NCBI GenBank assembly: GCA_020744425.1
Contig: JAGMUV010000012.1
Location: 1,302,001-1,366,000 of the forward strand
Source: Dactylonectria macrodidyma
Lineage: Eukaryota; Ascomycota; Sordariomycetes; Hypocreales; Nectriaceae
DNA: 64,000 bases
Reading direction: 5' to 3'
The translations under genes and the position numbers were made by a program. The notes under the pieces are model-generated. The model made no database searches and had not been told where the DNA came from. It saw only the letters and a list, made by a program, of their open reading frames with translations. Shown in pieces: positions 27,184-54,455 of the stretch (within the stretch, counting starts at the first letter, position 1; each line of letters starts with the position of its first letter).

Positions 27184-27200
27184 CAGTGTTGCTAATAGTA

Positions 27201-29415: not shown

Positions 29416-29846
29416 TATGGCAATAAAGTAGTATATTGCAATATACCCCATATGATATGGACTTTCTCATATTGTAACAATATAATATGAAGACTTTGAT
29501 ATTGTGACAATATAATATGAGGATGTCCCTATTGGCAATATATTATTTATATTGGGTTGTCAATCCTGGGGCCAATTCGCCCCTTGACGGTAGCCAGAGA
29601 GGCCTTACCCTATACCAGCCACAGGGATACTTGGCTTTTTATTGGCTGGCATTCACTTCGACACACGTCTTTGTTGACAGTCATTCCTAACACGCGACCA
29701 CGCGTTTCTTCCACGCGCCAGGGAAGGCATAGCCGGTACGGACGACGTTGGGCTGGGCATCCCGGTGGTTGCCTGTCAATATTTGCCATCGCCACCACTG
29801 CCCATTTTCTTTATCACTGTCGAGCGTACTGACTAACCGTACCGCC

Positions 29847-30004
29847 ATGCCTCAACAACGCCTCCATTTTGACCAATGGTCGCAACGAAGAGAGTCGTCA
29901 ATCTCAGTCGACGTTTCGGAGTTTTCCAGCCGGCAGTTGAATGACCTAGACCAGAGCCAAACGCCCAAATGCCAGTCATCTCGACCTCGCACCGCCTCCA
30001 CAAC
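29847..30004 (+). pseudogene. hAT-B transposase, 5' coding fragment
   Basis: ATG at 29847 opens MPQQRLHFDQW and runs 52 full codons plus two bases to the hAT-1 junction at 30004. The last eight bases, TCCACAAC, are the hAT-1 target duplication, whose partner lies at 51426-51433. Joined there, the frame continues directly into the hAT-B remainder. Confidence 0.85.
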
Positions 30005-33000
30005 CAAGGGTCGGAACCACTACATCCACTCCACTTTTGGGCCAAGTAGAGTGGATGGACCATTTTTAGGCAATTACAAAGTGGATGTAGCACACTTTCG
30101 ACCGGAGTGGAATGGATGTACACACGTGGATTTATAAGTGGATTTATAGTGGATCTTTGAGGCTCTTCACAACCTCGTCGGTGCCTATTCAGCCTCACTT
30201 TCAGACGTTGACACTAACTCTTCAACCTGTTGCTGCTGTGATGAATCGTCAACCTCGCTGGCGCTGTTCTCGCCCTCCAATAGCCATTTTGACTCAGCAA
30301 GTGCCAGCTCGTCCTCGCTTAGAGTCAAGCAGCCGGCATCCAGCTTGCTTTCAAGGTGTGACTTAAGCAATGGATCCAGGTCCTTGATAAGGCCAGCACG
30401 GTACCAAGAGCGTAAAACTTGACAAATGGCGATAATCTCAGCATCTAGGTTCGTACGCAACCCCGAGACCATCTTGCCAGCGGCTGAAAATAACCTCTCA
30501 CACTCGGCTGACATCGGCTGGATCGTCAGGAAGTCCAAGGCCATCCTGGATAACCGAGGATATCTGCTTTGCTTAGTTATCCAGTAACCAATTGGATCAC
30601 GAACGTCGCCGTCGCTGGCCTCACGATCCGTCTGCCACGCTTGGTACTCGTCACCAACAATAATTGCTGCGTATGCTGGTTTTGAGTTCGGCAGACGACT
30701 GTTCTTCTCGAAGGGGTTGAAAAACCGAGGTCTTTTTGCCGGTGGCTCGTCGTCGCCTCTGCTGCTGCTGGTTCTAACCTCGAGATGAGCGTAATCGGAC
30801 AGCCAGACGTCAGCAACCATCTCTTTTGCCTTTTCAACCCAGCTAGGCTTATGAGCCCACGTTTCATCAAACCAGTCCCAACGATAAGCTGGATGGAGCG
30901 CCATAGCCGTATAGTAGATGGGCGTCTCATCCAGCCGCCGATAATATTCATCCAGCTTATCCCAAGCAAGGTTGATTCCGATGCGGAAGTGCTCTGGATC
31001 AGGAAAATCAGCAGCAAGCTGCTTATATTCTTCCAGTGTGTTAAGCAGCAACTCATAGCCAAGCACCACGTCCCAGATATTGCCATAGGAGCCAGTCCAG
31101 CCTTGCTTATGCCTGCGGATGTGTCCATCACCCTCAAGCGTCTTTACCACGGTCTCAAAAACAGTCAGAATAGCCTCCAAATGGTAAAGAACCTCCCAGT
31201 CTTTATCCATTAGCTAATTCTCATCTCAGAGGATGCGTGGTTTTTTCGCCAACTTGGCTTGTATCACTTGGCCAGTCTTTTTAGGCCGATTTTCGTCCTC
31301 CCACTGCGCCTTATACTTAATCAGTAGGAGTTCGATAGAGGTTTTCAACCGTAGAGCCCTGCGGATCATGTAGAGTTGTGACAGCCAACGCGTGTCGTTG
31401 TCGATAATTAGCTTGAGTGGTTTCTTCGATCGGAGTTTAAGGGTGGTGGCGCGATTAATTTCGTCCTGTTAGATATACCGAGTTAATATGAGACGAATAG
31501 GATTTAGTTAAACCGCTTACCCTCTGGACCTCCTTGAGCAAGTAAATCAGCCGGTGGCTAATACGCACATCAACTACGATATTGTGTAACTTGCCAACTG
31601 GTCCTTTTTTGCGCCATTGAGCGTATTCAGTATCAGATAACGCTTCTGCGCCTGACAATTGCTTCTCGAACGCGTCGGCGTTTTTGCCAAATAAGAGCGC
31701 CTTGGCTGATAAGTTAATTGTGTGGCCAATACAACGTCCTCGGCGCAGTCGGCCATCGAACCCAAGTTCAGCACCAATGACCTCCATAGCAGTATCGTTG
31801 TTTTCTGCATTGTCAAGCGTGAAATAGCCAACCTTCTCTGGACCCACGCCAAGAGTGTGTAGGACGTCGAGAACCTCCCCACCGATCGTTGAGCCGAAGT
31901 GACGATGAGTCTCTGGAACTCCAATCATGATTTTGCATGGCCGATTCTTCTCGTCTCTGAAAAAACAAGCAATGCCATAGAGGGCAAGCTTATTTCGAGA
32001 CGTCCAGCCATCAAATGAAATATGAAGGGCTCCAGGGGAGTTCCTCAGCACCTCGATAACCGTCTGCTTGTGGCGGTTATACTCTTGAATGATCTTATAT
32101 CGGACAGCCGTGGCAGTCAAATTGGCGTGTTGGATGGAAACGGAGGGATTCAAATAGTCGAAGATTTCGCGGAGGATGGGGTTCTCGGCGAAGGAAAAGG
32201 ACTGGTTGCTACTGACGATTAACTCGACTAGCATACGCTGAAAGTGTTGCTTATCAAAGCGTGAGATGAAGCTATTCGCGATATTCTGTTCCGCAGGCTT
32301 GTTGACGTCCAGTTTCAAAACAGAGGCAATAGTTAGCTGGTTCGATTTCAGTGCGCCTTCGGATTTGAGCTGTGCTGTGCTCTTTTCCTCTCCCTCTGGT
32401 GCTGGTGTTTTGTGCTCACGCCATAGATGATTTGCCGCGTTCTGGAGACCTGAAGAGGTAAAACTCGCGATAATGGGACGATTTCTGAGGATACAGTCCT
32501 TGCAAGCCCATTTGCGTAAGCCATGACGTTGAATATCATAGCCAAAGTCCCACAGCCAAGAGCTAGTATCACGAGCGCGTTCTGACCAATTCCAGCCTCT
32601 GAAATGGCGAAAAAGACAGTCTTCGAGCTGCTGCTATTGGCCTGGTTGGCCTGGCTGGTTGGCTGACATCAAATTTTTTTGGGGGCAAAAACAAAGCAGG
32701 AAATCTGTAGAAAACGCGCTCAATAGGGGTAGTTTCTCGTCGAATGTTATTAGATTAGCTGTAGGGGTGATCGACCTCGGCTAACTCGGGTCCAGGTACC
32801 TCGATTTAATAGGCAGTCATATACAAAAATAAGTACTATGAACCATATAGGGTCAGGGAATATCCCACTGTACCTAAATCCACCTAAATCCACTCCATTA
32901 CATCCACTTTCGTGTCCCAGTGTAGTGGATTATTACGTAATCTGAGCGCCGACAAGTGGATGTAATAGAGATGGGCCACTTATATGTGGTCCACGTGGAT

Positions 33001-33026
33001 TTACAGTGTAGTGGGTTCGAGCCTTG
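30005..33026 (-). mobile_element. hAT-1 transposon, copy 1
   Basis: 3022 bp in the minus orientation. Termini read CAAGGGTCGGAACC (left) and, inverted, CAAGGCTCGAACCC (right). Position x here corresponds to 84460-x in copy 2, and every stretch compared is identical. Left flank is hAT-B, right flank is hAT-C. Confidence 0.95.
30185..32669 (-). pseudogene. hAT-1 transposase, broken (copy 1)
   Basis: Mirror image of the gene at 51791-54275, with the same three nonsense codons, the same 55-bp intron (here 31466-31520) and the same domains: BED finger, SFDGWTSRN, TLDNAENND, NDTRW and SAECERLFSAAG. Because the stops are shared, they predate the duplication or were spread by gene conversion. Confidence 0.92.
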
Positions 33027-34643
33027 GGCATAATAAGCCGGCGTCTCGTCAAGCCGCGAGTAGTACTTGTCAAGCTTTTTCCAACAGAGGTTAATGTTAA
33101 CCTTGAAGTGCTCGGGATCGGGATATCGATGGGCAGCAGCCTTAAATACCTCCATTTTGCTAAGGAGGTATTCGTAGCCAAGCAGGATATCCCATGGACA
33201 CCCATATGCCTCAATGTATCCTTCCTTCCGCTTGCGCTGCTGACCGTCGCCTTCGAGAGTAATCAGGACGTGCTCGAAGTGTTGAAGGACCTCGTTGAAT
33301 AAGGAAATATTAGCCCAGTCCTTCTCCTCGAGTTTGTTCTCGTCCCTGAGGCAGAGCGGCACCTCGCTGCTTGACTTCTTTCCCCTTAATACTAACCCCT
33401 CCCACTCGCTCTTCTGCTCATACCAAAGGTCCTCGAGGAAGTCTTTAAGGAGAAGGGCACGCCGAATCATATAAAGAGTGGAAAGCCAACGGGTAACCAC
33501 ATCAATGATAACATCTAGAGGTTTCTTCGCTCGAACCACCGGATCGTCAGACTTGCTGTACGCGGTAAGCTGAAGAGACCGGAGGAGATTGGTAAGCGAG
33601 TCTGAGCGGTGGATCCAGAAGATGAGGTTATGAAGTTTCCCCACTGGCCCTTTTCTTCTCCATAGCTCGTGGGCCTTCGCGTCAAGGGTCTCGTTCCCTT
33701 GGATATCGTCCTCGAAAGCCTCGGAATTATGGCCAAAAAGAAGTGCCTTAACGGCGAGATTGAGGATATGGCCAAAGCAGCGCAATCGCCGAGTTTTACC
33801 CTCGAAACCGAGCGCCTTCCCAATTTCTTCCATCGCCGTGTCGTTATTGCTGGCGTTATCGAGTGTGAAATATCCCACCTTGTGGGTAATGCCGTAGCTT
33901 CGAAGGACCTCGACAACGTGGGCGGCGATATTGTCCCCAGAATGGTGGTCGACAAGCTCAGGAAGGCCAAGCACAAGTTTTCTTGGCTGGCCAAGGGTGT
34001 TGAGAAAGTAGCAACAGATTCCATACAAAGCGTGGCGATTATTGGACCTCCAACCATCGAACGCAATATGAAGTAACCCCGGAGCTGTCGCCAATACTCG
34101 CTTGATCTCAGCCTTGTTTTCCTCGTACACCTGAAGAATACGCCTGCGGACGGTATTGTGGGTAATATGCGCTTCGGTTGTCTTCACGAGTGGATTGAGA
34201 TATTCGAAAGCGGCGCGGAGGTATGGATCTTCACTTTGTCGGAAAGAAGAGTTGCTGTTGATGATCCACGAGACTACCAAACGCTGGAAGACTAGCCGAT
34301 CAAAACTGCCAATGATCTGGTTTGCAATCTGCTGCTCTCGCGCGTCACGGGTATTCAGCTTCATCATCTCGGCGATATTCCTCGATGGTGTCTTCTCCTT
34401 TGCTTTGCTGGGCCGCTTCCGTCTTCCGGAAGGGTCCCAGACCTTGTGGTCGACTCTTCCGTACACGGAAATCTTGAGGTTCGAAGAGAAGACTGTCATA
34501 GACAAGGAGACCCAGGAACTACAGACAGAGAGAATCCTCAACGGTGATGAGTCGAGTAGCGGGAAATGGGCTAACATGCCTAACGATGACCCTGACCATG
34601 GAGAGTGCCCTGTTCCGGTCATTATCCCGGCCCGCACCGCCAT
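33027..34643 (-). pseudogene. hAT-C transposase, C-terminally truncated
   Basis: A third hAT transposase, most like hAT-A and hAT-1. It has the core Asp in AFDGWRSNN, TLDNASNND, CFGHILNLAVKALLF and the RDENKLEEKDW region. The coding sequence stops at DETPAYYA where hAT-1 copy 1 begins, so the SAECERLFSAAG dimerisation domain is missing. NDTRW is changed to DVVTRW. No convincing BED finger remains at the N-terminus, and the true start is unclear; the upstream 60 or so residues may not be original coding sequence. No continuation of hAT-C is found elsewhere in the window. Confidence 0.85.
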
Positions 34644-34953
34644 TGCACAAGTTGAGGTTTTCTCCTTGAAAAATGAAGAGGCGCCATAGACAGGGATCTG
34701 CTTAGAACAGGCCCAGAGAGAGGACAGCCAGAGGTCAAGTCTGAAACGGACGCCTAAGGCGCGCCCGAAGAGAAAACGTGTTTAATAAGCAAATCTGCAC
34801 TTGAATGAAAAGCCACCAAAGCTACGTAACCTTGAAGTCCGTTTGCACTGCTACAGCAACCCTGTTGTATGATTCGTTTGTTATGTTATACCTATGTTGA
34901 GCAAAAACATGAACTCGACGGAACTGATGCATACATGTCGAAGGAGCAGACGT
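34644..34953. other. Spacer between hAT-C and pogo-2
   Basis: No gene called. A plus-strand frame ending TPKARPKRKRV near 34770 is basic like the tail of the 389-aa transposon protein, but it is too short to assign. Confidence 0.35.
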
Positions 34954-34955
34954 TA

Positions 34956-37182
34956 CCATGCGGGACAACCTAATGAATAACCCCACCTAATGCATAACCA
35001 AAATTTTCGTCTTCCAATACAAAATCCAATTTTTGATCACCCCAAAATCAGCCCAGACTCTCAATTTGTAAATAAACCTTTAGAATATTCTTATAGAAAT
35101 TTGTTCAAATTTTACTCTCTACGTGGGTTTTTGACCTCCCGCCCGCTGCGTGTGCGCTGGCAGTCTTTTGTTTCCATCTCAGATTCTTCACTTTCCTCCT
35201 CCGACCCGACACCCACCTCAATCACCGACTTGACCTCTTCATCCACATCAGCCTCTTTTTCCCCATCCTTTGAACTAGGAATGGACTTTTCAGCTGCTAG
35301 GGACTCAGCTAGAGCCATGAATCGTCGGTTCGGGTTCGGTACCGCCTTCCTTTTCCTCCCTCGCCGCAGCTGGGCCATCTGCTCCTCAAGCCCAGCAATC
35401 CGCCCATTCTGAACGGCCACCTTCATCTCTAAAGCTTCCAGCCCCTTTGCGATCTTGCTGTACTTTCTCCTCGTCGGACGACTTCGGTGTTTGGCCAAAT
35501 CTCTCACCTGCCGGCTCGTCGTCGGCGTGTCATCTGAGTGCAGCTGAGTAGGGCTCGGTGTCTTGAACTGTTCCGCCACTGACTCCTTGTCTGGCTGGAT
35601 TTCTGGATGTTTTAGCGCCTTGTGACGGCTTATAGGCCAATTTCCAGTAAACCTCCAGCCGGATAAGATAATCTCTTTTCTCATGCCCGCCTCCCTGGCT
35701 TTCGCGTATGCCCGGATAAAATTGACCTTGTCAACCGGCGCAGAATCGGTCAAACTAGCCAGGTTTTGGAGTTCTTTTCGATATTCACCTTTGATGACAT
35801 TAAAGATCCCATTATCTAACGGCTGCAAACCATGAGAACAATGTGCTGGCAGGTAGCAACAGTACACGTTGTTCAGAAAGCACGTCGCCATCCACCCGTC
35901 CTGCGCGCTCATCAGTAATCTTATAGCCGGAGAATCTGCGGTGTAACGGCCAAAAGACTCACCTGCGCATGGCTCCCATGACCGTCGAGGATGATAAGTC
36001 TCGCATCCGAGGCATCTAGAGGCTCTGTCTGGGGTAAATAAACATCTTTCAGCCACTCAAGAGCTATATGGTTGTCGGTCCAGCCGTTCGGCGATGTGAT
36101 GTAGTGCCAGTCCGCTATCGCCTCAAACTCTTCAACGAACCACTGCTTCTGCAGCTCTTTGCCTTTGAAAATGATTGCTGGTTTCAAAGCTCGACCAGTT
36201 GCGGTGACAGCCTCAATAAACGACGTCCAAGCGCGCGACTGGGTGCCTTTCAACAGCGCCTTCTTCTTCAGGTCAGAGCTCCCGATTACGAGGCTATCCA
36301 AGCCTTGTGGACAGCTAATTAGCTATGGCCGATCAAAACCCGTTGGGGACTTGCAGACAACGTACCGAAACCAGCCATTATGCCACCCTCGTCCACGTTA
36401 ACTGTGTTCTCAGGCTTGATCCAGCCGTACTCGGTCTCCCGAATATCAAAGTACCAATTGACCGCTTTTGGTGTAAACCCGTTAAATCTGGAGGCTTCCT
36501 GGCGTTTTCCAAGCTCGGTAGATAGTTTTATGTGACGCTTGACGAATCTGGTGGTCCAGTGCTTGCCCAGAGGCTGGTTATCGCCTTGTTGTTGGAGGAT
36601 GGCCTCGACGCAGGCCCGGAGTTGGCTGTGGGAGAGGGCATAGCCCAGAGACTCCTGCCGCAGCACCTAACGAACGAGGGTCTCCTCTTGGCTCTTTGAA
36701 ATACGCTGGTGGGCCTGGATACGTTCATTCCTGCTCGCATGACCGGAAAGTCGACGAGAAAGGGTCGGCTGAGGTACTCCTCGTTTCTGGGCCGCCTCGT
36801 TCTGTGAAAGGCCTCTATCGGTGATATCTAATATAGCCTCGGCTATGTCATCTTCTGTATAGGTACAGCGACCCATTGCGTAAGTTGTTCTGACGAGTCT
36901 GTTGGGTGAAATGTCGAGTTGAATGGATGGAGTCGCCTAGGGTAGATGAAGCGGAATGAAAAATTTTTCAAAGTGCTAGAGAACTGGGCTCCAGGGCGGG
37001 ACGGAAAAAAATCAAGGCGATATTAAAGGTTCATGAAATAGACAAGCATTTCCAGGCATTGTTTTATGAGCATCTCCATTCCTGGCTGAATGCGGTGCAA
37101 TTGAAAATTTGGATTTTGTATGGGAAGATGAAAATTTTGGTTATGCATTAGGTGGGGTTATTCATTAGGTGGTCCCGCATGG
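34956..37182 (-). mobile_element. pogo/Fot-like transposon copy 2
   Basis: 2227 bp between TA dinucleotides (34954-34955 and 37183-37184), with inverted repeats of about 80 bp beginning CCATGCGGGAC. Each contains CACCTAATGAATAACC and CACCTAATGCATAACC in tandem. It is related to pogo-1 but clearly a separate subfamily. Confidence 0.92.
35112..36876 (-). pseudogene. pogo-like transposase, one nonsense codon
   Basis: Exons 36876-36366, 36303-35963 and 35900-35112 with two 62-bp introns give 546 codons. The only defect seen is TAG at 36667-36669, where copy 1 has Trp (TGG). It has the helix-turn-helix N-terminus (MGRCTYTEDDIAEAIL) and all three catalytic Asp: NVDEGGIM, LDGHGSHA and LQPLDNGIF. 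A coiled-coil-like segment (KIAKGLEALEMKV) and a charged tail follow. It would cut and paste the element at TA sites. Being one transition from open, it is the best preserved pogo gene here. Confidence 0.9.
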
Positions 37183-37236
37183 TAACCAGCTCGCCCTCAT
37201 GCCCCTCGCGATCCGACTCTGGGTAAGTTTAGCATC

Positions 37237-37569
37237 TCAATACACAGCAGAGGGCCGCAATATTACGAAGATACGGCCAAGGCCACCTCCAGAGCCGGTG
37301 AAGATCGTCTGTGAGGGTGTGGAACGATCAGAGGTTATTAGGTCGATAGACTGTATAGCGGAGGAGGTGGAAGCTGTCTTAACGTCTCGAAACGGGACTG
37401 GCGAGCTGTCGAGGATGGAGATACTCATGGGCCAATGTCTCCCGCAATATGGACACAGATTCGACCCTGGGTAGCTATTGCGGATGAAATCGTGGCTCCG
37501 TTGGTATGATTTAGAGGCCACAGTCTTCAGAACTTTGGGACATATCTGCGATAGGACGTGATCGGGCAT
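37237..37569 (-). pseudogene. Relic related to the 389-aa transposon protein
   Basis: A 110-codon frame whose N-terminal part matches the 7142-8311 protein in motif and spacing: H-x3-R-x3-P-x3-L-C-x-Y-C-G-x2-W-P (from SHDFIRNSYP to RHWP). It is followed by SIDLITSD, comparable to TIDLTDES. Pogo-2 ends 53 bp downstream and may have cut the gene. It suggests a second, decayed element of the same type. Confidence 0.55.
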
Positions 37570-37599
37570 ATCTACGTATAAGGCAAGGTCAGTCGCACA

Positions 37600-38254
37600 A
37601 TCTCATGATGGATAGACCTGAGGTTACTTAGGGAATGGATGGAGATAGCCTATAATAGCTATGGGGTGGCGATGGGCTGGGTATTGACGCTGGTGTGGAT
37701 GTGTGAGTGGAAGAATTGTAACGCGTCACCAGGAATTATTACGACATATTCCCTGGTGGAGACGCCATCTAAATGAAGAGATACCTTCCGGATAGTGTGC
37801 GGTACTGTAGTCTTGCAAGGGGGCATAAAATTACTAAGTATTTCCACATGGTTGAGGCTTCCCAAAAGGGTTATGTCACCCATGTGGTAATGTGCGACCG
37901 TATCCACCCTCTAGTGAACACTATCCCTGTGATCGAATTGACCGTACGGTATCCAACACTATACATAAATGTATATCAATGCTATACATCCTGTAGTTCC
38001 AACTGAAGCGACTAGTGCGGTGCTAATCCCCCCGTAAGGTTTGTAATGACCTGATACCAGAAACCCTAAATCTCCTCAGGTGTTGTGATATGATTCAGCC
38101 ATGAAGCCTTCATGATGTCTGGCGTACCGGCATGTTACGTCACTTACTAAACCATATGATCCCCTCACGCCACTGGTGATCATCATGCTAAAGAGGGAAG
38201 CAAACCGTCTCGAGAACAAGAGACTAGACTGGTGGTCAAGCCGTGTCCTGAACC
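37600..38254. other. Non-coding stretch
   Basis: No gene, RNA or repeat recognised; it may include the remains of the element at 37237-37569. Confidence 0.4.
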
Positions 38255-38932
38255 ATGAAGCCTGAGCCTCAGATCGCAATTATTGGTGTTGGCCAAGTCG
38301 GGCGGCGCCGCAGGGCATGCCATTATTCTCGCCTCCGTCGCGGCCCAGTTGCTCTTGGTCGAAATCGATATTGACCTGAGAGACGGCTAGACTCTGGACC
38401 TCTCCGATGTGGCCTATAGTAGCACGCGTGTGCGGGGCGGCCACGTACCATGTGGCAGCCCCGTGCGACGTTGTGCTCATCACAGCAGGATCCAAGCACA
38501 CCATAGGTACGGGATAGGAATAGGAGAAGGCTGGTTGCTTTGCGCTCTTCTGGGACCCGAGCTCACTTGATAACCCCTTAGGCCAAATCACGATTGACTA
38601 CACATCCCGGAACATTTCGATTGTCCGGAACATAATCGAAGCAGTGACGTCATTCAGATCAGACACCATCTTGCTCGTCGTTGCGAACCCATTTGACTTG
38701 CTCACATCCTTTGCTTAGGAGCTCTCTGGACTTCCGGCCTCTTAAGTCCTGGGCTCAGGCACTTTCCTCGACTCCGTGCGACTTCGTAGGCTAATGGCGG
38801 ACCGGGTGGGAGTGAGTGGTACATAATCCATACATCCTCTTTCTAGCTATGCTAATAAAGCTCTAGGCTGCGGCAAAGTCAATAGATATTCACGTGTTGG
38901 GCGTGCACGGAGATCCTCAATGTGAGGGAACA
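38255..38932 (+). pseudogene. Lactate dehydrogenase-type pseudogene
   Basis: A degenerate NAD-dependent lactate/malate dehydrogenase gene. It starts MKPEPQIAIIGVGQVG (Rossmann glycines), then LLLVEIDIDLRDG, with a stop and frameshifts through about 38390-38560. It continues YTSRNISIVRNIIEA, LLVVANPFDLLTSFA, then two stops, and VLGSGTFLDSVRLRRLMADR. After an apparent intron (GTGAGT...CTCTAG, about 38811-38865) it reads SIDIHVLGVHGD, which includes the catalytic His. An LTR begins at 38936, and the remaining C-terminal half is absent. The enzyme would interconvert pyruvate and lactate. This copy cannot. Confidence 0.85.
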
Positions 38933-38935
38933 TCA

Positions 38936-39088
38936 TGTGACTTTCATACTTTATGAATAGTCTCACTTTATGAATATTGTATAAATAGCTTTAAGTCAGA
39001 GCTTTCCTTAGGAATCACTTTCTCTTCTTGTAAACAATCATTTTACCCAAGTCGCACCCGACCTCGTTCGTGCTCTTGTACCGTCACA
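38936..39088 (+). repeat. LTR with TATA box, inserted in the LDH pseudogene
   Basis: 153 bp with perfect TGTGAC...GTCACA ends and TATAAATA at 38980-38987. It has the look of a short LTR with a promoter. No second LTR is seen downstream, so the element is truncated or solo. Confidence 0.5.
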
Positions 39089-39117
39089 AGTTGTCTCTTG
39101 ATTAGCCACGTTTAATA

Positions 39118-39378
39118 ATGTCGATGCTCTTAAACATCATGGTCTCTACAAATCCATTTTCTGTTTCTGTTAACGACTACGGCTCTCTTGCCTTGACAGA
39201 GAAGCCCGCTGAAGACTTAGATGCCGCTGGAGACTCTCCTCAACCCTCAGAATCCTCCTCTGCTACGGTATCTAGAAAACGCTTCCGCACTGTGGCGCGA
39301 GGGGACCCTAGTTTGACGTTAATAATCTCGTCTTTTTCTTCCCTTGCACACTACAGAAAGTCAGACCTTGCCCTCTAG
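39118..39378 (+). CDS. Hypothetical ORF behind the LTR, possibly gag-like
   Basis: An 86-codon Ser-rich ORF starting 30 bp after the LTR at 38936-39088, where gag would begin. No gag domain is recognisable, and an opposite-strand ORF (39308-39538) overlaps its end. Function unknown. Confidence 0.25.
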   Translation: MSMLLNIMVSTNPFSVSVNDYGSLALTEKPAEDLDAAGDSPQPSESSSATVSRKRFRTVARGDPSLTLIISSFSSLAHYRKSDLAL

Positions 39379-40178
39379 GCCGCTCGCGGTGCCTGCTCAT
39401 ACTGGTCTCTGACTGAATTGCTCCCAATCGCGCTTCTTCATACCAGGCGCTTAATGTCTTGCCTTGGTATGTTAGGTCTTCATCATTGATCAATGTGCGG
39501 GTGAAATAGTAGTACAAACGGTCGGGCTTGGATGGCATTTTGGTGCAGGGCTTGCTGGTGTTGGTTGTTCTATGCCTGTTATCGGAGGAGTTGGAGGAGA
39601 AGCATTTTCAAATTGGCAGGTGAAAGTGTGTATTAAGGCCGCATCGGTGGTTGCGGTGCGTTTATTTTAGTGCCCGTGCAAGGCTGTTGCACATGAAACA
39701 AGGTCGATGATTTGTTGGTGACTAAACATGGCTTCCCACAACATGTTACGGCGACAGCGTGGCGGCTAACACATGATCTGGAAATCATCATGGCGTAATA
39801 TCAATTCTTAGTGCGCAACAGCCGCCAATGAGCCACCCATCCATTCATTTGTTCGTCAGATCATGCCTTCGGGACGACTTTTCGCCGATTGCCAAGGCAA
39901 TTATCCTTTAGCAACTTCCTGTGCCATTGGTACGGATGGTCAGAAATCAACGGACGAAACATAAATCACCTTCGGAGGTGTGCGATAAATCGAAATTAAT
40001 GAATGAGGTTTCAAACTGGTGCAGATTCGATGAACTGAACATGGAGGCAACCTAACGTGATTCTGGGTTTGCCTAATTGATGGCGACCCCACTTTCTAAC
40101 CTTCATAGCGCTGTTATTCTCACAAGTCAAGGGGTGCAACATAGGATGTGGCCAGAAGACATTGAATTGAGCTACTTC
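39379..40178. other. Stretch without a recognised gene
   Basis: A minus-strand frame 39308-39538 (MPSKPDRLYYYFTRTLIND) looks protein-like but I cannot assign it. The rest shows nothing. Confidence 0.35.
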
Positions 40179-40508
40179 TTCTATCTAAGAGAGCGACGAA
40201 GGTCGGTCTCTTATACCTGTGTTCAATCTGCCAATATCATAGGCAGCAGGCTGCTGCCTGATACTAGTTGTGGTCGTTCACTGATGCGAATATATCGCGG
40301 AGGTCACATAAAGTGAGGTTGTCATGTAGATGTAGAAAGATGGATGACGAGCTAAGACTACAGTTGAGGACGGGAGTATAAGGTCTCCTTCCTCACGTGA
40401 TGTTACATATAATGCCAGTCTTAAGCACCAGGCCCAAGGCTGGTTCTTCACGTATCATTCACTCTCATCGTGAACTTGTTCACGATGATCGTGATCCTTG
40501 CCTCATTT
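40179..40508 (+). repeat. Repeat X, second copy, interrupted by a solo LTR
   Basis: It matches 24741-24889 in two pieces (40179-40281 and 40458-40508). Both hairpins are kept: 40241-40259 and 40465-40488. The loop of the second is TT here and AA in the other copy. Confidence 0.85.
40282..40457 (+). repeat. Solo LTR, 176 bp, with 5-bp target duplication
   Basis: TGATGCGAA...ACGTATCA flanked by TTCAC on both sides (40277-40281 and 40458-40462). The empty site is seen in repeat X near 24838. A truncated copy lies at 58894. Confidence 0.88.
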
Positions 40509-44400: not shown

Positions 44401-44959
44401 CTACAATCGTTGTCGAGTTGCGGGCATGGTAAGCTATGGAAGACTCGTCGCCGTAATCGGACACGGCGACTTCGTGGACGGATGATCGCGAGCGTAGGAA
44501 TACGGGGCTTGGGGGAGCTTGTCCGTCTGAGAGGAGGTAGGTGGCAAGCTCCGCGGTGTCTTGACGAATGTTTCTCGCATTTTGAACACTATCTACCGGA
44601 ACTAGTCCGCAGGAGTTAGCGATTTTGGATTGTCTTCAATTTTTTTATTTGGAAGCAAAAGCTGGGTGTAAGCAGGTGATGGTGTGGAGATGATAGGGGC
44701 GTTAAGCGCATTAATTAAACATACCCAGTAAGTCATCTCGCACAGAGCTGTGAATAAAGGATCGAATGGGCTCTCTATGGCTAGGCGCGGAGCTGATGGA
44801 CGTCGGGCGAGCTTGCGTAGGAGTAGTCGAAGTTTGGTGGGAACCGTGCGAAGGGCTGGAGCTGAAGCCATCGGCGGGTTGGAGCTGCGGGGGATCGCGC
44901 TGCGAGGTCGAGCTCAATGCCCTCCTCCTCCACGGAGTGAAGCCGAGCGGCGAAGACAT
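41420..44959 (-). CDS. SulP-family transporter with STAS and cyclic-nucleotide-binding domains
   Basis: Five exons (44959-44725, 44601-43921, 43869-43727, 43667-43121, 43062-41420) join in frame to 1082 residues. A long Ser/Pro-rich N-terminus with RSRSSVHEVAVSDYGD precedes the SulP membrane domain (about 10-14 segments, for example ILDALSYG, GSIFKGAVGSEL, VGYMVGLIPRHILIGCIGG). A cytosolic STAS domain (LILDLWHVSGLDYSAGEAF) and a C-terminal cNMP-binding-like domain (PAGTILFRRGESANGFYMLERG, GTTCGELPFF) follow. This architecture is that of yeast Ygr125w/Vsb1, a vacuolar-membrane protein needed for basic amino-acid storage, so a vacuolar transporter is likely rather than a sulfate permease. It appears intact and lies inside the segment between the inverted hAT-1 copies. 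Confidence 0.92.
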
Positions 44960-45626
44960 TGGATCAGCTCAAAGCTCGGAACTTGCCGATGAAGCTCCAG
45001 GAGACAACCGGAAAGCGGGAGGGATTGGGCATAGTTATTAATATCGCATGGATGAGGACACCACAACGAAGAACGGAAAACATAGAGAAACTCAAACCAC
45101 CACTAAAGGTAGAAGTAAAAGCATTCCAGGTCTCAGATAGCGGACAGACGGCGAGAGTTCGTGGGGAATGAAGTGACGAAACTCATTGATCGAGTCCTGG
45201 TGGGTCATGGCACCAGCGAGCGGGCGCAAAGCTGTGGCATTAAGTTGGAATAACTTACCGCTTTGGGTATCTTTTAATTTGTTGTCATGCCGCTTTAAAA
45301 TCTACTCTGAGCCACTTAACGACAGTAAACCTCCTCTGTGAGCAAAAGAGCTGAAACTTAAAAGCAGCAGCATCACTCTTCCTAATTAAGCTAAAACAAT
45401 ACGGCGGTACCTGACAGGGGATTCAAACTTATTGCCAACCACTGTAAACTAGTCAACTCGAGAAAAACCTTGCTTTCAATTCAGCGCAAGATTCCCTTGT
45501 CCGTTTTGCATGTGGTCTCACCCCTCAACACTCAAAGACCGGGCACCGAACCCGCCCCTGTAGAGGCTCCGGAGTGGTTGCTATCCAGTGCTATGCGCAG
45601 CCGTTTCATCGCACTCTATCCGAACT
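44960..45626. other. Intergenic region upstream of the SulP gene
   Basis: Promoter and leader of the SulP gene; no other feature is supported. Confidence 0.5.
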
Positions 45627-46003
45627 ATGGGAAACAAAAATCCCCCAGACGTTGCTCGTTCACCCATCCTCACAACCATGTCCAATTCCCCTTCGTCCAA
45701 CGCAGCCGTTGGCAGCGTGACCTCCACAGTCGACGACTCTGGTGAGCGGTCCTGCCATCGTTGGCAGCCTGACCCGCTCCGCCCGCCGATTCTGCCCCCG
45801 ACCTGCCTACTGACCTTTCCAGTCAACACTGAGGCGCCCGCCAATTTCCCTCCTCGTAAAACGGATAATCCTCCCCCGTACGTTTGCGGCACCTGCCAGC
45901 GCTCGTTCACCCGACTGGAACATCTTAAGCGACACGAGCGCTCCCACACCAAGTAGAAACCCTTCGAGTGTCCCGAATGCGCACGATGCTTCCCCCGGGG
46001 AGA
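45627..46003 (+). pseudogene. C2H2 zinc-finger factor, N-terminal fragment
   Basis: From the ATG at 45627 (MGNKNPPDVARSP), a likely 83-bp intron (GTGAGC...TTTCCAG) separates STVDDS from NTEAPANFPP. The first C2H2 finger is complete (YVCGTCQRSFTRLEHLKRHERSH). TAG at 45954-45956 follows HTK where Glu is usual. The second finger starts (KPFECPECARCF) but loses its sequence at about 46000, where the gene's continuation is inverted. Confidence 0.8.
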
Positions 46004-46648
46004 TAGATGGAAGATAAGACGTCAGAGATGAGGTATGAGACACTGATCCGGGCAGGTTTCGTGTCTGCGATGAGCAGAGAATCTCGAAGGTTTGGCTCGA
46101 GGGCATCTTATTCATGGACTGCGCAAACGGTGAGGCCTGCTCCAAGGCCATCCATTGCAGCGAATCATTGTAATGGAGGGTATTGGGGTCTATCGTCGAG
46201 CCCGGCCTGTATAGGAGGCCGTCAAAGTGGAATTCAGCGTTGAAGGCAGCCATCGGCGGCGCTGTCCGCAGACCGGGGTTGAAGTCGACGCCGCTCAAAG
46301 TGCTCGTCTCCAGCTTGGGCAGCCCGTGCTGCACCCGTCGCTGTCCCATGCGACCAAAGCCAAGGTCCAAGTTGGGTATGGGCAAACCAGCCAGACTCGG
46401 GTGTCCGCTATGGGTATGAGTCGCGGGAATGCCTCGTGCGACGGAGGGATTCGCAGCAGCAATCATCTGCATCGCGCTGCCGTCGACATGGCTGATGGTG
46501 TTTGGCCGCGGCCTCATAGAGATGCAGCTGGGTTAGATCCTACGACCCTATTCTTGCGAGCTTGGCTCTGCCTGGGGGTGACGCCACTGGCAGAGTCGCG
46601 ACGATTGCGGGGACGTAACGGCGGGGTCGATGTCTGGTGCAGCTGTTG
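46004..46648 (-). pseudogene. C2H2 factor, middle segment in inverted orientation
   Basis: On the minus strand the frame resumes with LHQTSTPPLRPRNRRDSASG, the linker that normally follows the second finger. After a two-base frameshift near 46517 comes MRPRPNTISHVDGSAMQM through LHYNDSLQWMALEQ. It belongs with 45627-46003 but lies on the other strand. Confidence 0.6.
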
Positions 46649-47121
46649 GGTCTGATGCAGTCTAGCTTCTGGGTGATGTTTTAGATCACGGGCACGCCCC
46701 GATCGTTCAACTCGGGCTCGTCCAGTTCCCATGGCTGGTTATTTCGCACCGTTGAGTAGAGCTTGTGTGCAGTGGCAATCAGGGCGAATTGGGTGTTCTC
46801 AAGGACCTCGGCGTATCTAGACGGTGTAAGTGAGAGGTGGGCCCCGAGGGTTTTTTGCAACTTACCCTCGCGGCAGCTGTTTGTACTCCCTCTTCTTTCT
46901 GACACCAGCGGTGCAGACCAATCCGTCGTCCTTGCATCGCTTACAAGGGAACTCGCCGTCACACTCAAAGCATGTTAGTCAGACTGGGTAAGCGGTTGGG
47001 AGTGACGTCGCCATACCTTGGTCTTCTTCACTCGACATCTTTCACAGGCCTTCCAGACTCTCTTACGTCGGCCATCGTTGACTAGTAAGTCTGTAGCGAG
47101 CATCGGCTCAACAGTGGCCAT
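46649..47121 (-). pseudogene. Zn2Cys6 transcription-factor N-terminal fragment
   Basis: ATG at 47121. Exons 47121-47017, 46963-46866 and from 46816 down, with introns of 53 and 49 bp. The zinc cluster is complete: ACERCRVKKTK, then CDGEFPCKRCKDDGLVC. It is followed by QLPRG, YAEVLENTQFALIATAH and ELNDRGVPVI. TAA at 46681-46683 stands where the frame continues NITQKLDCIRPNS, then the gene gives way to the inverted C2H2 segment near 46648. It is a truncated gene without its regulatory half; as it stands it could encode only a short DNA-binding peptide. Confidence 0.78.
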
Positions 47122-49215
47122 TTTACCAGACAAAATTCGCCATGGAACCGCTCTGTCTTTCCGCGGAGATATCTGGCTCCCATCTTAGATAGCTACAACA
47201 CTATCACCGGAACCTCCGGATGCGACGGTGTAATAACGCTCAACAACATAATAGGACTTTGAGGCATTGAGTTTGCGCTAAAGACTTGTGAATGCAACCA
47301 AATGTCTCGCGTTGGGAAGCAGAGATGTCTCCTAACCCCCTGAAACCAGCCATGAGATAACGGAAAGTTCCAGATGGTGCTCCCATAAATCATTAGTCAT
47401 TTCGATAGATATGTCGGCTTCTAAGAATCACAGCCTCGTCATCACCTTCTCCTATGTTGTGTTTTGAAACTGTCCCCAATGTGAGTGTTTATTAAGGCAA
47501 TCTGAAGCTTGACCCGCATTCTACTTCGCTATTGGACAATTACAATTCTGGGGTAGGCTCAGGATTGCTCCTGTCGCCGTTTCCATTCGGTGAATCCCGT
47601 CCTGTCACATGTTAGATTAGCGCTCCAGAGCCTAGTCTCTAACCGTGCGACTGGAGAGATACAATACTAATGCAAGCCTCACGGGCATAATGACGTTCAT
47701 TCTTGACCTGGGTAACGATGTACTAACTAAACCCTTCTGTCACTTCACTGCCAGACGGTATCGCAATTGCTGAAACAACGAGCCGAAAACTGGCGAGAAG
47801 GATTGAATACCTGTCTGGAGCGATTAGGAAACTAAGCGCCAACGGATTAGGGCACGTATAGCCGCATGCTGATGGCGAAGGGCCTGAGCACGCATGACAT
47901 GGCCTGCACTTTTGGTCAGAAACCTCTCGTAAATACTCAGTAGTGAGCCAACATGTGTTATCTCCATCGCGAGGAACGACTGGATTTGGATCGATGGGAG
48001 TGTTTGTCGGAAGATTAGTGTCGAACTTTTCGAGAGGCATGTGTGTTAAATCCACTTGTTCCCTCCCAGGACGCTCGTGAAGAGGGGGGCTGTGGCCTAG
48101 AATAGGAGAAGACATTATTTGTAGGTATAACTTAGTAGATAAAGTTAGGGAGACAAAGGAGGCTCAGAAGCAACGGGGAGAAGGCGTGAATTTATGTTCT
48201 CCTGGGTCGAGCTGAGCCCGTGAATAAAGCCCCAGAGTCCAGAAGGGCGGCCTGCATGAAGATTTCTTGTCACATGTGACGTTGGGAATCTAGAGGGGGG
48301 CTGTCTTAGCTCGGCTGCATAGCCATGCTGGGCCAGGCAGCATAGAGATACAAAGAGGTATATTTGCCTTATACGGAAAGGATCCGGACATGACGATGCT
48401 ACTTGATACAACGAGGCAGCGCCAACATGATGATCAAGCTTCTTCTTACAGCCATGTTGCCATCCCCCGACCCCGTTCTGTAAAGCCGGCCCAACTGCCC
48501 GAGCGTAAGACAGCGTCCAGGCATATCACCAATCCCTAAACTGATGGTAAGGCATACTCTCTACTCCACGCCTTCCTCGACATCCCCTTAGCAGTGAAGC
48601 CTGTCCAGCATGCAGTTCAAATCAACACCCACCCTCCCCCGCCCCTAGCGACACACACGCAACACAACCACCATGCAAGGTAAAAGGGGCTTTGACTCCG
48701 ATCTTTCAGGGATCATGCAATAGAGGCGAGACTCATGGAAGCCATCCCCCTAAAGCTCCCACATGCAGGAGCTGCCCCTTTCCCCTCGGCATGATGTTGG
48801 AGTAGCACTTTGTAAAGCAATATAAGATTTAGAGCAGGAGCCTAATATAATCGAGGATGGACAAGGGTCCGAGGGCTGGCGTGAACTGCTGTTCAATGTT
48901 CATTGAAGCATCGAACAACGAATTGGGACGTGCCTAATAAGACCTGATTGCGCCGCTTGCCCCGGTATTGGCTACTTCAGTTATCGCATTTTGACTATGT
49001 TGATCAAGGACAGGTGGATTGTTAGTCCACCTGTCCTTCCAAGTGTCTCGACACTTGGTCAGAGTCCCTTTGCCGCATCGCCCCTCGAAGGTCCCTAAAC
49101 CTGCCGGACAAGTATGCACATATATTGGCTGTAATATCCCAATGCTTCTCCAGCATGCGGCTAAGGAGTTTCAGGCATCGACTCGGATCAACCAGGTACG
49201 CCTGCATCGCATATG
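47122..49215. other. Long stretch without a recognised gene
   Basis: About 2.1 kb. Small ORFs on both strands (for example 47723-48115 and 48145-48411, minus) carry no recognised motif. A 14-nt inverted pair around 49010-49040 (CCACCTGTCCTT/AAGGACAGGTGG) is visible near the hAT-B boundary. Confidence 0.45.
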
Positions 49216-51433
49216 CAGTGTTGCTAATAATATAAACAATACGTATATTGGCAATATGGACCCCCTCGCAATAATATCGTATTGTCGAGAGGCTATATTG
49301 TATTACCCAATATGAACAGGACCCATATTGTATTGTATTGCCAAGAACCCAATATATTGGCAGTGTGACAATACATCCAATATATTCCACGTGACCTCAT
49401 CATTCAACTGCCTCAGCGAAAATCTCGTCACCTTGAAAATCTCGTATCCCAAACCATGACTTCAGGCACTCCAATGCTTCAATTACATCACTCCCAAGTC
49501 GATTTCGACAGTCTGTAATCGTTATCTTTGCCCCAGAGAAGAGTCGTTCGGGCTCCGCAGACATTGCAGGAATTGACAATATATCCACGGCCATCTTGCT
49601 CAGGCTCGGGTAGTTTTTCTGCTGCGTCTCCTCTAGCCACCATGCAAGGGCGCTCGTAAAACCATAAACCCGTTCAGACTTGCAATAACGCTCATATTCG
49701 TCCGTGATGAGTGACGGCTGCAGGTGCTTGTTCCGCCAATTCAAGAACTCGTTCGTGGTCGCCGATGGGACCTCGCAGACTGGAAGAGGTGATTCCACAG
49801 GTCTATATTCGTTCCACAGCGTCTCAAGCAACTTCTTCGACGACTCAACCCACTCCTTTTTCCAGTTCTCCTGGATGTAGTGCCATTTATGTGAAGGGTG
49901 GAGCACGATAGCTGCAACGTAGGCAGGTGATTCATCAGTAAGGCGATAATACTTGTCCAGCTTCGCCCAGCCCGAGTTATACATCGGTGCCATCACCGGA
50001 TCGTCGACATTTGCCTCCTTGCCGGCTTCGAATTGTGCCAATACGAAGTCCATAGCCAGGAGGACATTGTCGAGTGTTGCAAACGATGACTCGAGAGCCT
50101 TAGTCGCCATCTTCAGCTTCTCTAAGAAGAACTTGATCTTCTCCAAGATGGTCCAGTCCTCTGAAGAGAGCTCGTCTCCAGCGCAATCTGCATCCATCCA
50201 TTTGTTGAAATAGCCGTCAATTGCGTCTCTAAGGTTCAAGGCCGCTCTCAACATGGTATACCACGAGCTCCACCTTGTGTCGTTGTCTCGCGCAAGCTTA
50301 CGGTTATGGCTGATAGCAAGAAACTTTTGGATGCGCTGAACATTCCGTTGGATGTAAACGACGAAGTTGTGAAGCTTGCCAAGAGGTCCCTTCTTCCGCC
50401 ACGCTTCAATATGCTTTAGTGTCACATTATACACACCTGGATCGTCGCATTCGAGCTTCTCATTGTCGGTAACAAAGAGGAAAGCTTTGGCGGCGAGATT
50501 GATGATATGACCTTGGCAGCGGAGTCGGTGAACTTTGGGATCGTATCGGATGTCATATCGGCGAAGGAGGCCTGTGGGATCTTAGAACCAGTCAGTAGAA
50601 ACGGTGAGTTGTACTGACCAAGCGAAAGGGATCTCATCATTGTGTCATTATTGCCAGCATTGTCCATCACGAAATATCCGAGTTTTTGAAGCAAAGCCCC
50701 ATTCGTCAACCACTTCCAAAATGGCCGCAGCGAGGTGAGAACCGTCGTGCTCACTGTCGATATCTTTCAACGCCAAAACATGGTGTTCCAGCTGGCCGTC
50801 TTCCGTGACATAGTGGCCGACTACACCCAAAATGGCCAAAGAGTTAGGAGAAGTCCAAAGGTCGCAGCTGATATGAATTCTTGACTTCGCCGACTGTATG
50901 CGCTGCTTGACCTTCTCCTTCTGGTCTTCATGCTGCCGCATAATCCATTTCCTAATGGTCTCGTGCGTATCTGGAAGCCAAGTATCGATATCGTCATTGA
51001 TGTAGGCCAAGAGTGCCCGGAACTCTGGGCATTCCACAAGCCGAAATGAGAGAGAGCAGGCCGTAATAAACCTCACGTACAACACTTCGAGCTGGTCAGG
51101 GTCGATCGAATCTCCGGATAGATCGTTGAACCGACGGCGTTTGCGGGGATTTTCTTCTGCTGCAGCACGAGCTTGTTCGAGAATCGTTCGTATCGTTGTC
51201 ACTTTAGCTGTTCGCAGGGCTCCTTTTGGTAGGCCGCGGCCGTCAGGAGGAGGGCCCGTAAGATGTTTTGCAGGAGCCGCAGTACCCCCAGAACAGGCAT
51301 ATGCTCTGTCACAATGTTTACAACGCCACTCTTCTTTTCCGGTCCGCTGATTGTAGTATCTCGTCTCCATCTCCTCGTCTGGCATATGAGAGAAGACCCA
51401 TGACGTTCTGGGCTTGGTGGAGGAGGTTGTGGA
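49216..51433 (-). mobile_element. hAT-B transposon, right part (3' portion)
   Basis: It runs from the hAT-1 copy 2 junction (target duplication GTTGTGGA at 51426-51433) down to the terminus at 49216, where the plus strand reads CAGTGTTGCTAATAA. The terminal tract 49216-49390 is AT-rich with repeated CAATAT-like units, as is the left end near 29420-29560. Confidence 0.8.
49400..51433 (-). pseudogene. hAT-B transposase, main part, frameshifted
   Basis: It continues the reading frame that starts at 29847. BED finger (EEWRCKHCDRAY...AKHL), catalytic Asp in HISCDLWTSPN, then a frameshift at the run of five T on the plus strand (50683-50687). The frame resumes in LGYFVMDNAGNNDT. A 47-bp intron (50572-50618) follows, then GHIINLAAKAFLF, DNDTRWSSW and the dimerisation region (SAEPERLFSGAKI) to the stop at 49400. 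In the window it has no start codon of its own, because the first 52 codons are 21 kb away on the other side of the inversion. Confidence 0.88.
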
Positions 51434-54400
51434 CAAGGCTCGAACCCACTACACTGTAAATCCACGTGGACCACATATAAGTGGCCCATCTCTATTACAT
51501 CCACTTGTCGGCGCTCAGATTACGTAATAATCCACTACACTGGGACACGAAAGTGGATGTAATGGAGTGGATTTAGGTGGATTTAGGTACAGTGGGATAT
51601 TCCCTGACCCTATATGGTTCATAGTACTTATTTTTGTATATGACTGCCTATTAAATCGAGGTACCTGGACCCGAGTTAGCCGAGGTCGATCACCCCTACA
51701 GCTAATCTAATAACATTCGACGAGAAACTACCCCTATTGAGCGCGTTTTCTACAGATTTCCTGCTTTGTTTTTGCCCCCAAAAAAATTTGATGTCAGCCA
51801 ACCAGCCAGGCCAACCAGGCCAATAGCAGCAGCTCGAAGACTGTCTTTTTCGCCATTTCAGAGGCTGGAATTGGTCAGAACGCGCTCGTGATACTAGCTC
51901 TTGGCTGTGGGACTTTGGCTATGATATTCAACGTCATGGCTTACGCAAATGGGCTTGCAAGGACTGTATCCTCAGAAATCGTCCCATTATCGCGAGTTTT
52001 ACCTCTTCAGGTCTCCAGAACGCGGCAAATCATCTATGGCGTGAGCACAAAACACCAGCACCAGAGGGAGAGGAAAAGAGCACAGCACAGCTCAAATCCG
52101 AAGGCGCACTGAAATCGAACCAGCTAACTATTGCCTCTGTTTTGAAACTGGACGTCAACAAGCCTGCGGAACAGAATATCGCGAATAGCTTCATCTCACG
52201 CTTTGATAAGCAACACTTTCAGCGTATGCTAGTCGAGTTAATCGTCAGTAGCAACCAGTCCTTTTCCTTCGCCGAGAACCCCATCCTCCGCGAAATCTTC
52301 GACTATTTGAATCCCTCCGTTTCCATCCAACACGCCAATTTGACTGCCACGGCTGTCCGATATAAGATCATTCAAGAGTATAACCGCCACAAGCAGACGG
52401 TTATCGAGGTGCTGAGGAACTCCCCTGGAGCCCTTCATATTTCATTTGATGGCTGGACGTCTCGAAATAAGCTTGCCCTCTATGGCATTGCTTGTTTTTT
52501 CAGAGACGAGAAGAATCGGCCATGCAAAATCATGATTGGAGTTCCAGAGACTCATCGTCACTTCGGCTCAACGATCGGTGGGGAGGTTCTCGACGTCCTA
52601 CACACTCTTGGCGTGGGTCCAGAGAAGGTTGGCTATTTCACGCTTGACAATGCAGAAAACAACGATACTGCTATGGAGGTCATTGGTGCTGAACTTGGGT
52701 TCGATGGCCGACTGCGCCGAGGACGTTGTATTGGCCACACAATTAACTTATCAGCCAAGGCGCTCTTATTTGGCAAAAACGCCGACGCGTTCGAGAAGCA
52801 ATTGTCAGGCGCAGAAGCGTTATCTGATACTGAATACGCTCAATGGCGCAAAAAAGGACCAGTTGGCAAGTTACACAATATCGTAGTTGATGTGCGTATT
52901 AGCCACCGGCTGATTTACTTGCTCAAGGAGGTCCAGAGGGTAAGCGGTTTAACTAAATCCTATTCGTCTCATATTAACTCGGTATATCTAACAGGACGAA
53001 ATTAATCGCGCCACCACCCTTAAACTCCGATCGAAGAAACCACTCAAGCTAATTATCGACAACGACACGCGTTGGCTGTCACAACTCTACATGATCCGCA
53101 GGGCTCTACGGTTGAAAACCTCTATCGAACTCCTACTGATTAAGTATAAGGCGCAGTGGGAGGACGAAAATCGGCCTAAAAAGACTGGCCAAGTGATACA
53201 AGCCAAGTTGGCGAAAAAACCACGCATCCTCTGAGATGAGAATTAGCTAATGGATAAAGACTGGGAGGTTCTTTACCATTTGGAGGCTATTCTGACTGTT
53301 TTTGAGACCGTGGTAAAGACGCTTGAGGGTGATGGACACATCCGCAGGCATAAGCAAGGCTGGACTGGCTCCTATGGCAATATCTGGGACGTGGTGCTTG
53401 GCTATGAGTTGCTGCTTAACACACTGGAAGAATATAAGCAGCTTGCTGCTGATTTTCCTGATCCAGAGCACTTCCGCATCGGAATCAACCTTGCTTGGGA
53501 TAAGCTGGATGAATATTATCGGCGGCTGGATGAGACGCCCATCTACTATACGGCTATGGCGCTCCATCCAGCTTATCGTTGGGACTGGTTTGATGAAACG
53601 TGGGCTCATAAGCCTAGCTGGGTTGAAAAGGCAAAAGAGATGGTTGCTGACGTCTGGCTGTCCGATTACGCTCATCTCGAGGTTAGAACCAGCAGCAGCA
53701 GAGGCGACGACGAGCCACCGGCAAAAAGACCTCGGTTTTTCAACCCCTTCGAGAAGAACAGTCGTCTGCCGAACTCAAAACCAGCATACGCAGCAATTAT
53801 TGTTGGTGACGAGTACCAAGCGTGGCAGACGGATCGTGAGGCCAGCGACGGCGACGTTCGTGATCCAATTGGTTACTGGATAACTAAGCAAAGCAGATAT
53901 CCTCGGTTATCCAGGATGGCCTTGGACTTCCTGACGATCCAGCCGATGTCAGCCGAGTGTGAGAGGTTATTTTCAGCCGCTGGCAAGATGGTCTCGGGGT
54001 TGCGTACGAACCTAGATGCTGAGATTATCGCCATTTGTCAAGTTTTACGCTCTTGGTACCGTGCTGGCCTTATCAAGGACCTGGATCCATTGCTTAAGTC
54101 ACACCTTGAAAGCAAGCTGGATGCCGGCTGCTTGACTCTAAGCGAGGACGAGCTGGCACTTGCTGAGTCAAAATGGCTATTGGAGGGCGAGAACAGCGCC
54201 AGCGAGGTTGACGATTCATCACAGCAGCAACAGGTTGAAGAGTTAGTGTCAACGTCTGAAAGTGAGGCTGAATAGGCACCGACGAGGTTGTGAAGAGCCT
54301 CAAAGATCCACTATAAATCCACTTATAAATCCACGTGTGTACATCCATTCCACTCCGGTCGAAAGTGTGCTACATCCACTTTGTAATTGCCTAAAAATGG

Positions 54401-54455
54401 TCCATCCACTCTACTTGGCCCAAAAGTGGAGTGGATGTAGTGGTTCCGACCCTTG
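51434..54455 (+). mobile_element. hAT-1 transposon, copy 2
   Basis: 3022 bp, identical in length and in all compared sequence to copy 1, in opposite orientation. Left flank is hAT-B coding sequence, right flank is the piggyBac-like gene (GCGGGCTG). Confidence 0.95.
51791..54275 (+). pseudogene. hAT-1 transposase, broken (copy 2)
   Basis: ATG at 51791 (MSANQPGQPGQ). Nonsense codons are TAG at 51824-51826, TGA at 53232-53234 and TAG at 53244-53246, each one transition from CAG or CGA. The intron 52940-52994 (GTAAGC...AACAG) restores DEINRATTLKL. Domains in order: BED finger (WACKDC...NHLWREH), SFDGWTSRN, TLDNAENND, RCIGHTINLSAKALLF, NDTRW, and the C-terminal SAECERLFSAAG. The C-terminus is acidic. 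Without readthrough no active transposase is made; mobilisation would need another hAT such as hAT-A. Confidence 0.92.

Follow-up and report, generated by a model that had tools for sequence, protein, structure and literature searches.

Introduction

The closest described systems are the inversions generated at maize p1/p2 by reversed-ends transposition (RET) of Ac/fAc elements. In the parts of that report available to us, matching 8-bp repeats are described at both inversion junctions and the stretch between the two elements is lost (PMC8225341). For Galileo elements, the available sections of another report state that recombination between copies should leave exchanged duplications and chimeric copies, that aberrant transposition starting from separate sites yields an inversion together with a deletion or a duplication, and that insertion of a hybrid element gives identical copies (PMC2775673). 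In inversion 2z3 of Drosophila buzzatii, as those sections present it, opposite-orientation Galileo copies lie at the breakpoints; the exchange of both duplications and the chimeric structure of the copies were regarded by the authors as proof of ectopic recombination (PMC2775673). Among fungal transposons, Styx of Zymoseptoria tritici has been tied to chromosomal rearrangements that likely result from non-allelic homologous recombination, and the words "inversion" and "hAT" are absent from the main text of that report in the form available to us (PMC10853768). Among the titles and abstracts listed by searches of an open-licence library, none dealt with RET in a fungus.

The locus analyzed here lies in a stretch of 64,000 nucleotides, hereafter the window (bases 1302001-1366000 of contig C4, in an assembly of 77 Mb and 77 contigs). 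It resembles the maize alleles, as far as the available text describes them (PMC8225341), in having a probably inverted segment bordered on both sides by hAT elements, a single 8-bp duplication common to the junctions and apparently lost inter-element DNA. It differs from them in that the maize progenitor allele is known, whereas ours is reconstructed, in its fungal host and in the full length and identity of its two elements. With 2z3, judged from the same sections as above, it shares opposite-orientation copies at the breakpoints and a history read from exchanged duplications; however, only one of the two duplications is exchanged in the window and the copies are identical rather than chimeric (PMC2775673).

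The hAT-1 pair and its split duplication

The hAT-1 pair comprises the following features:
30005-33026, plus strand: hAT-1 copy 1, full length, 3022 bp, with a shortened transposase frame on the opposite strand
51434-54455, minus strand: hAT-1 copy 2, 3022 bp, identical to copy 1
29997-30004, plus strand: first half of the split 8-bp duplication, TCCACAAC, at the end of the left flank of copy 1
51426-51433, minus strand: second half of the split duplication, GTTGTGGA on the plus strand, at the end of the left flank of copy 2 and complementary to TCCACAAC
33027-51433, no strand assigned: segment of 18,407 bp proposed to be inverted, on the basis of the split duplication and the split hAT-B element

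A sequence-only reading of this DNA had described a head-on pair of 3022-bp hAT-1 copies with a split 8-bp duplication, and both were confirmed at these coordinates. The copies lie in opposite orientation, 18.4 kb apart, and copy 2 is the exact reverse complement of copy 1 (3022/3022 bases, 0 differences). Read in the direction of the element, copy 1 has on its left the same 8-mer (TCCACAAC) that copy 2 has on its right. Membership in the hAT superfamily is indicated by the C-terminal dimerisation domain PF05699 at 53247-54272 of copy 2 (7.9e-16). The same reading had proposed that uniting the two flanks would join a hAT-B coding sequence in frame across the site; joined by script, the flanks read ...SRPRTASTTSSTKPRTSWVFSH..., and the translation of the joined window is RTASTTSSTKPR.

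The chance of an exact 8-mer match is about 1 in 65,536 for one named pair. A genome-wide ledger of hAT-1 flanks was compiled with wildcard patterns for both element ends and held 88 left and 75 right ends; eleven rows of one search were dropped (eight being right ends that the other search listed again) and one end was added. For the whole ledger, the calculated expectation is about 0.1 exact cross-matches, and given this value and the coding join, a chance match of TCCACAAC was rejected. No other end in the ledger carries TCCACAAC. An inversion at one junction, or else a misassembled orientation, is well supported. It is likely that the 18.4-kb segment between the copies was inverted, and we infer that it is so in the living DNA.

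In all, 22 full hAT-1 copies were aligned (20 plus the window pair), the sequence search having given 46 full and partial matches. The window copies are 0/3022 apart, the nearest of the 20 other full copies is at 29 mismatches, and at 17 positions the pair carries bases found in no other copy of this set. The longest frames of the pair are 392 and 342 aa, compared with 432 and 427 aa in several relatives. The shortened frames are common to both copies, and thus the pair was most likely duplicated after the damage. Four other full copies are identical to each other; the flanks match in two of them and mismatch in the other two. As judged by eye from the site table, both C4:261535 and C4:275965 combine the two subfamilies in a mosaic, which shows that hAT-1 copies do exchange sequence by homology. 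These two copies have mismatched flanks and are inverted, 11 kb apart, with 8 mismatches between them. The window copies display no visible chimerism, and a crossover between identical parents would be invisible.

The split element hAT-B

The element into which TCCACAAC falls is represented in the window by three parts:
27184-27200, plus strand: left tip of hAT-B, CAGTGTTGCTAATAGTA, the same tip as in other copies
29416-30004, plus strand: remainder of the hAT-B left part, ending where hAT-1 is inserted
49216-51433, minus strand: right part of hAT-B, with a hAT dimerisation domain

The two halves, now separated by 21 kb, are on opposite strands, each beside a hAT-1 end with the common duplication. 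In whole-assembly searches, 23 of the 30 listed hAT-B left-half matches that reach the site overlap a right-half match by exactly 8 bp; 22 were scored by script and the other one is C19:548787, which the script had paired with a wrong neighbour. The remaining listed matches comprise one with an overlap of 6 bp (its left match being trimmed by 2), one that is interrupted (519 bp) and five without a listed right half, three of which (two C42 copies and one on C29) are continuous at the site in the sequence examined. Translation across the site in six copies gave RTASTTSSTKPR in five and CTASTTSSTKTR in the sixth, which belongs to an 86-88% subgroup. Intact hAT-B copies lacking the joined sequence would speak against the inversion; the copies elsewhere proved to be continuous, with a single TCCACAAC. 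Therefore, hAT-B was once continuous here as well, the 8 bp were duplicated and the hAT-1 ends lie at the break.

The outer flanks of the window hAT-B do not match (CCACCTCG and CATATGCG), and the same holds for 11 of the 24 two-ended hAT-B copies, a count that excludes 10 weak rows. Thus, hAT-B's own duplication is silent on the inversion, and it was dropped as a second proof of the un-flipped order. A TIR element (CCATGCACC...GGTGCATGG) is nested in the left tip of hAT-B at 27201-29415, and the tip itself was found beyond it. The nested element is flanked by a TA duplication (27199-27200 and 29416-29417) of the kind seen in Tc1/mariner-type elements.

Elsewhere in the assembly, hAT-B ends on opposite strands share an exact 8-mer at C33:279774/310432 (CAAATCAG) and C29:211509/231907 (CGTCTAGT), the ends being 20-31 kb apart, and these pairs are possible further inversions. 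At the 211509 member of the C29 pair, no hAT-B sequence was found at the two places tested.

A segmental duplicate of the left flank

Window positions 22829-27200 and 29412-30004 are duplicated on the same contig at C4:1581326-1586294, about 255 kb away, with 98.8-100% identity; in its longer delimitation the duplicate reaches C4:1581326-1587353. The duplicate contains neither hAT-1 nor the TIR element and has one TCCACAAC, and as such it is an empty-site version of the locus.

When the window hAT-B was compared with the duplicate at C4:1585702, 5 of 593 sites differed in the left part (0.8%) and 46 of 1059 in the right part (4.3%). A change-point scan placed the best switch at position 707, with support over 563-760 (191 of 1653 positions), and 1 of 1000 shuffles was as good. 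A lineage switch located exactly at the hAT-1 site (593) had been considered as proof of two source elements and was dropped, the change point being at 707 and loose; with support spread over 563-760, the fact that position 593 falls within this range carries no particular weight. One of the two loci, either the window or the duplicate, seems to be recombinant in hAT-B, and the mismatched outer flanks together with the unequal divergence indicate that the two halves may not derive from one element. The duplicate and the mismatched hAT-B flanks show that there was further rearrangement nearby. The sequence-only reading was made without knowledge of either.

The second junction

At the other two ends of the hAT-1 copies the following features were found:
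33027-33034, plus strand: right flank of copy 1, GGCATAAT, unmatched by copy 2 or any listed hAT-1 end
33027-34451, minus strand: element C, cut at copy 1, with GGCATAAT inside it
54456-54463, plus strand: outer flank of copy 2, GCGGGCTG, which reads CAGCCCGC in element orientation; unmatched by any listed hAT-1 end
54456-55654, minus strand: element D with a DDE_Tnp_1_7 transposase, cut at copy 2, with CAGCCCGC inside it

A Pfam search of element C gave no match, and by reading alone it appears hAT-like; element D is presumably of the piggyBac type. The second pair of flanks, GGCATAAT and CAGCCCGC, does not match, a point absent from the sequence-only reading. One relative each of C and D runs on through the cut point, and neither continuation is present in the window.

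The missing partners were also sought among hAT-1 ends. Whole-assembly searches with a pattern of a hAT-1 end plus the adjoining partner of GGCATAAT or of CAGCCCGC, allowing up to 3 mismatches, found no match with fewer than 3; at exactly 3 mismatches there were 8 places for GGCATAAT (5 in the reversed control) and 7 for CAGCCCGC (0 in the control). Two of the 8 weak places, both on C45, carry GGCATAAT exactly with 3 base differences in the hAT-1 end, and the closest flank among the 7 is that of C77:2248521, where 6 of the 8 bases match CAGCCCGC. All three are absent from the ledger, and neither partner 8-mer occurs among its listed ends. We read these results as indicating that no partner end survives.

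Flanks of hAT-1 copies across the genome

Pairing of the ledger ends yielded 64 two-ended hAT-1-type copies, which include shorter relatives with the same ends, and left 35 ends single. The 8-bp target duplication expected of hAT elements was found in 33 of the 64 (at most 1 mismatch), and the flanks of the other 31 were mismatched, three of these (C29:277779, C29:66430, and C33:123976) being likely mispairings. With a base rate of 31/64, the argument drawn from the mismatch between C and D is weakened.

Exact cross-element matches of 8-mers were found for the window (one way), for a pair on C22 (both ways), for a pair on C25 (one way) and for the nested case C29:277801, each within one contig; four further rows match at 7 of 8 positions, which is about chance level. 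C22:681346/688421 resembles the window pair in that its two hAT-1 copies are inverted, lie on one contig and have split duplications. However, both of its duplications are exchanged (ATTAGACG and CACGTCGA) and 1,028 bp lie between its members, whereas in the window one is exchanged and 18,407 bp intervene. The C22 pair looks exactly as plain recombination of two ordinary insertions should leave it. When the flanks of one of its duplications are joined, they read on, by eye, as one coding stretch. The pair C25:594143/643165, with ATACTTCC in common, was considered as a further split pair and set aside: it is unscorable as one- or two-sided, since its partner lacks hAT-1 where the left end should be; the right part of this partner is hAT-1. 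As C22 (both duplications exchanged) and the window (one exchanged, the other lost) illustrate, a ledger of the 8-bp flanks of a single transposon allows the rearrangements in an assembly to be sorted by their likely mechanism.

Possible mechanisms of the proposed inversion

The sequence-only reading had attributed the arrangement to an inversion by recombination between the copies. The inversion itself is likely, with one duplication exchanged, but the mechanism is called into question by the unmatched second pair, GGCATAAT and CAGCCCGC. Simple recombination should exchange both duplications and here one of two is exchanged, so either extra events or another mechanism is needed. Our first choice is that a single reversed-ends transposition of hAT-1 inverted the 18.4-kb segment, to which we assign a rough probability of 0.43. 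This places RET narrowly ahead of recombination, a ranking that one strain comparison could shift.

According to this reading, two neighbouring hAT-1 copies in direct orientation would have resided in elements C and D, respectively, with complete duplications of ATTATGCC and GCGGGCTG, and hAT-B would have been whole. Transposase would cut the facing ends of the two copies and paste them into hAT-B as a new target, which would give the split TCCACAAC, and the stretch between the two original elements would be lost. Given that the transposase frame is shortened in both copies, a relative with open frames would probably have acted in trans. One such event would account for the split TCCACAAC, the two unmatched flanks, the missing partners and the half elements C and D.

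Several observations are consistent with RET. One 8-bp duplication is present at both inversion junctions exactly at element ends, namely where copy 1 faces outwards and where copy 2 faces the segment. By reasoning, if the inversion is undone, the hAT-1 ends beside C and D come to lie in direct orientation, which is compatible with RET. The partner ends would be missing because the inter-element stretch was lost, as RET expects, although an ordinary deletion would give the same result. The copies are identical and not visibly chimeric, chimerism being the mark of recombination in the Galileo report (PMC2775673), and the C22 pair shows what plain recombination should look like. Published marks of RET include one matching junction pair, identical copies and missing partners. 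On the other side, mismatched flanks are common, so the mismatch between C and D could be an older loss, with recombination explaining the rest. RET also requires two identical copies in direct orientation in a progenitor that is itself a reconstruction, the C4 mosaics point to homology exchange, and the two C45 places and C77:2248521 mean that the partner searches are not airtight. The mismatch of the hAT-B outer flanks and the divergence of 0.8% vs 4.3% are predicted by neither RET nor recombination.

Homologous recombination, i.e., between a hAT-1 copy inserted in hAT-B and an inverted copy between C and D that lost its duplication earlier or later by a separate deletion, is a serious competitor that could well be correct. 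It amounts to the mechanism proposed originally plus one event, and with 31 of 64 copies mismatched such a copy is not improbable. The C22 pair, with both duplications exchanged, and the C4 mosaics of two subfamilies also argue for it. Inverted repeats of 3 kb with 18 kb between them recombine readily, and gene conversion would keep them identical. Of the features of ectopic recombination, opposite orientation was found at both ends, but only one of the two duplications was exchanged. Furthermore, this explanation needs two rearrangements as well as local transposition or conversion for the copies to be identical, the copies show no visible chimerism, and neither reciprocal end was found among the searched or listed hAT-1 ends.

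Transposition of a hybrid element from sister chromatids is unlikely. Here, one hAT-1 between C and D, already with mismatched flanks, would have contributed one end from each sister and both would have entered hAT-B; the identity of the copies (0 of 3022) would follow automatically and one new duplication would be split, in agreement with the available sections on Galileo (PMC2775673). However, the earlier mismatch between C and D is still required, and identity is weak evidence in a genome where four other copies are identical to each other.

Very unlikely is an assembly artefact, in which the assembler would have given the 18.4-kb segment the wrong orientation between the perfect inverted repeats of 3 kb, and the living genome would carry an unbroken hAT-B that contains the hAT-1 insertion. 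Perfect repeats are where assemblers fail, and the case was judged from the assembly alone. Nevertheless, 77 contigs for 77 Mb, the longest seen being 7.2 Mb, suggest long reads, which cross 3-kb repeats easily, and a mere flip would still leave the junction of C, hAT-1 and D mismatched. Finally, the idea that the halves come from different hAT-B copies, the common TCCACAAC then standing for a site that two related elements share and not for a single insertion, is the least credible: it draws on the mismatched outer flanks and on the different closest relatives of the left and right parts, but two insertions at one base are improbable with TCCACAAC at no other ledger end, 11 of 24 two-ended hAT-B copies mismatch anyway and the change point is loose (563-760, 191 of 1653).

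If the RET reading is true, inversions made by a transposase, known from the hAT elements of maize, occur in a fungus too and carry host genes with them, in this case a SulP gene. We regard as doubtful the broader view that hAT alternative transposition is a main source of structural change in this fungus, having made the 18-kb inversion in one step and also many of the hAT-1 copies with mismatched flanks (about half of all), so that split duplications would serve as a genome-wide log of rearrangements by transposase outside plants.

The SulP gene and the presumed flipped cargo

The segment between the copies had been said to carry a SulP gene, and the gene was located within it:
41423-43706, minus strand: SulP sulfate permease gene, in two frames (putative exons), with STAS and cNMP-binding domains

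The block containing it (40597-47968) is repeated at C20:620901-628334 with 98% identity and partially on C26 with 96%. The C20 repeat was considered as an un-flipped copy of the segment and rejected, as it covers window positions 40597-47968 only and stops short of both breakpoints. Four more SulP-like loci were found at 74-77%, so the gene in the window has several counterparts in this genome. The SulP relatives listed with an organism name belong to Purpureocillium, Fusarium, Ilyonectria, Escovopsis, Podospora, and Thermothielavioides, all of which we take to be Sordariomycetes, i.e., filamentous ascomycetes.
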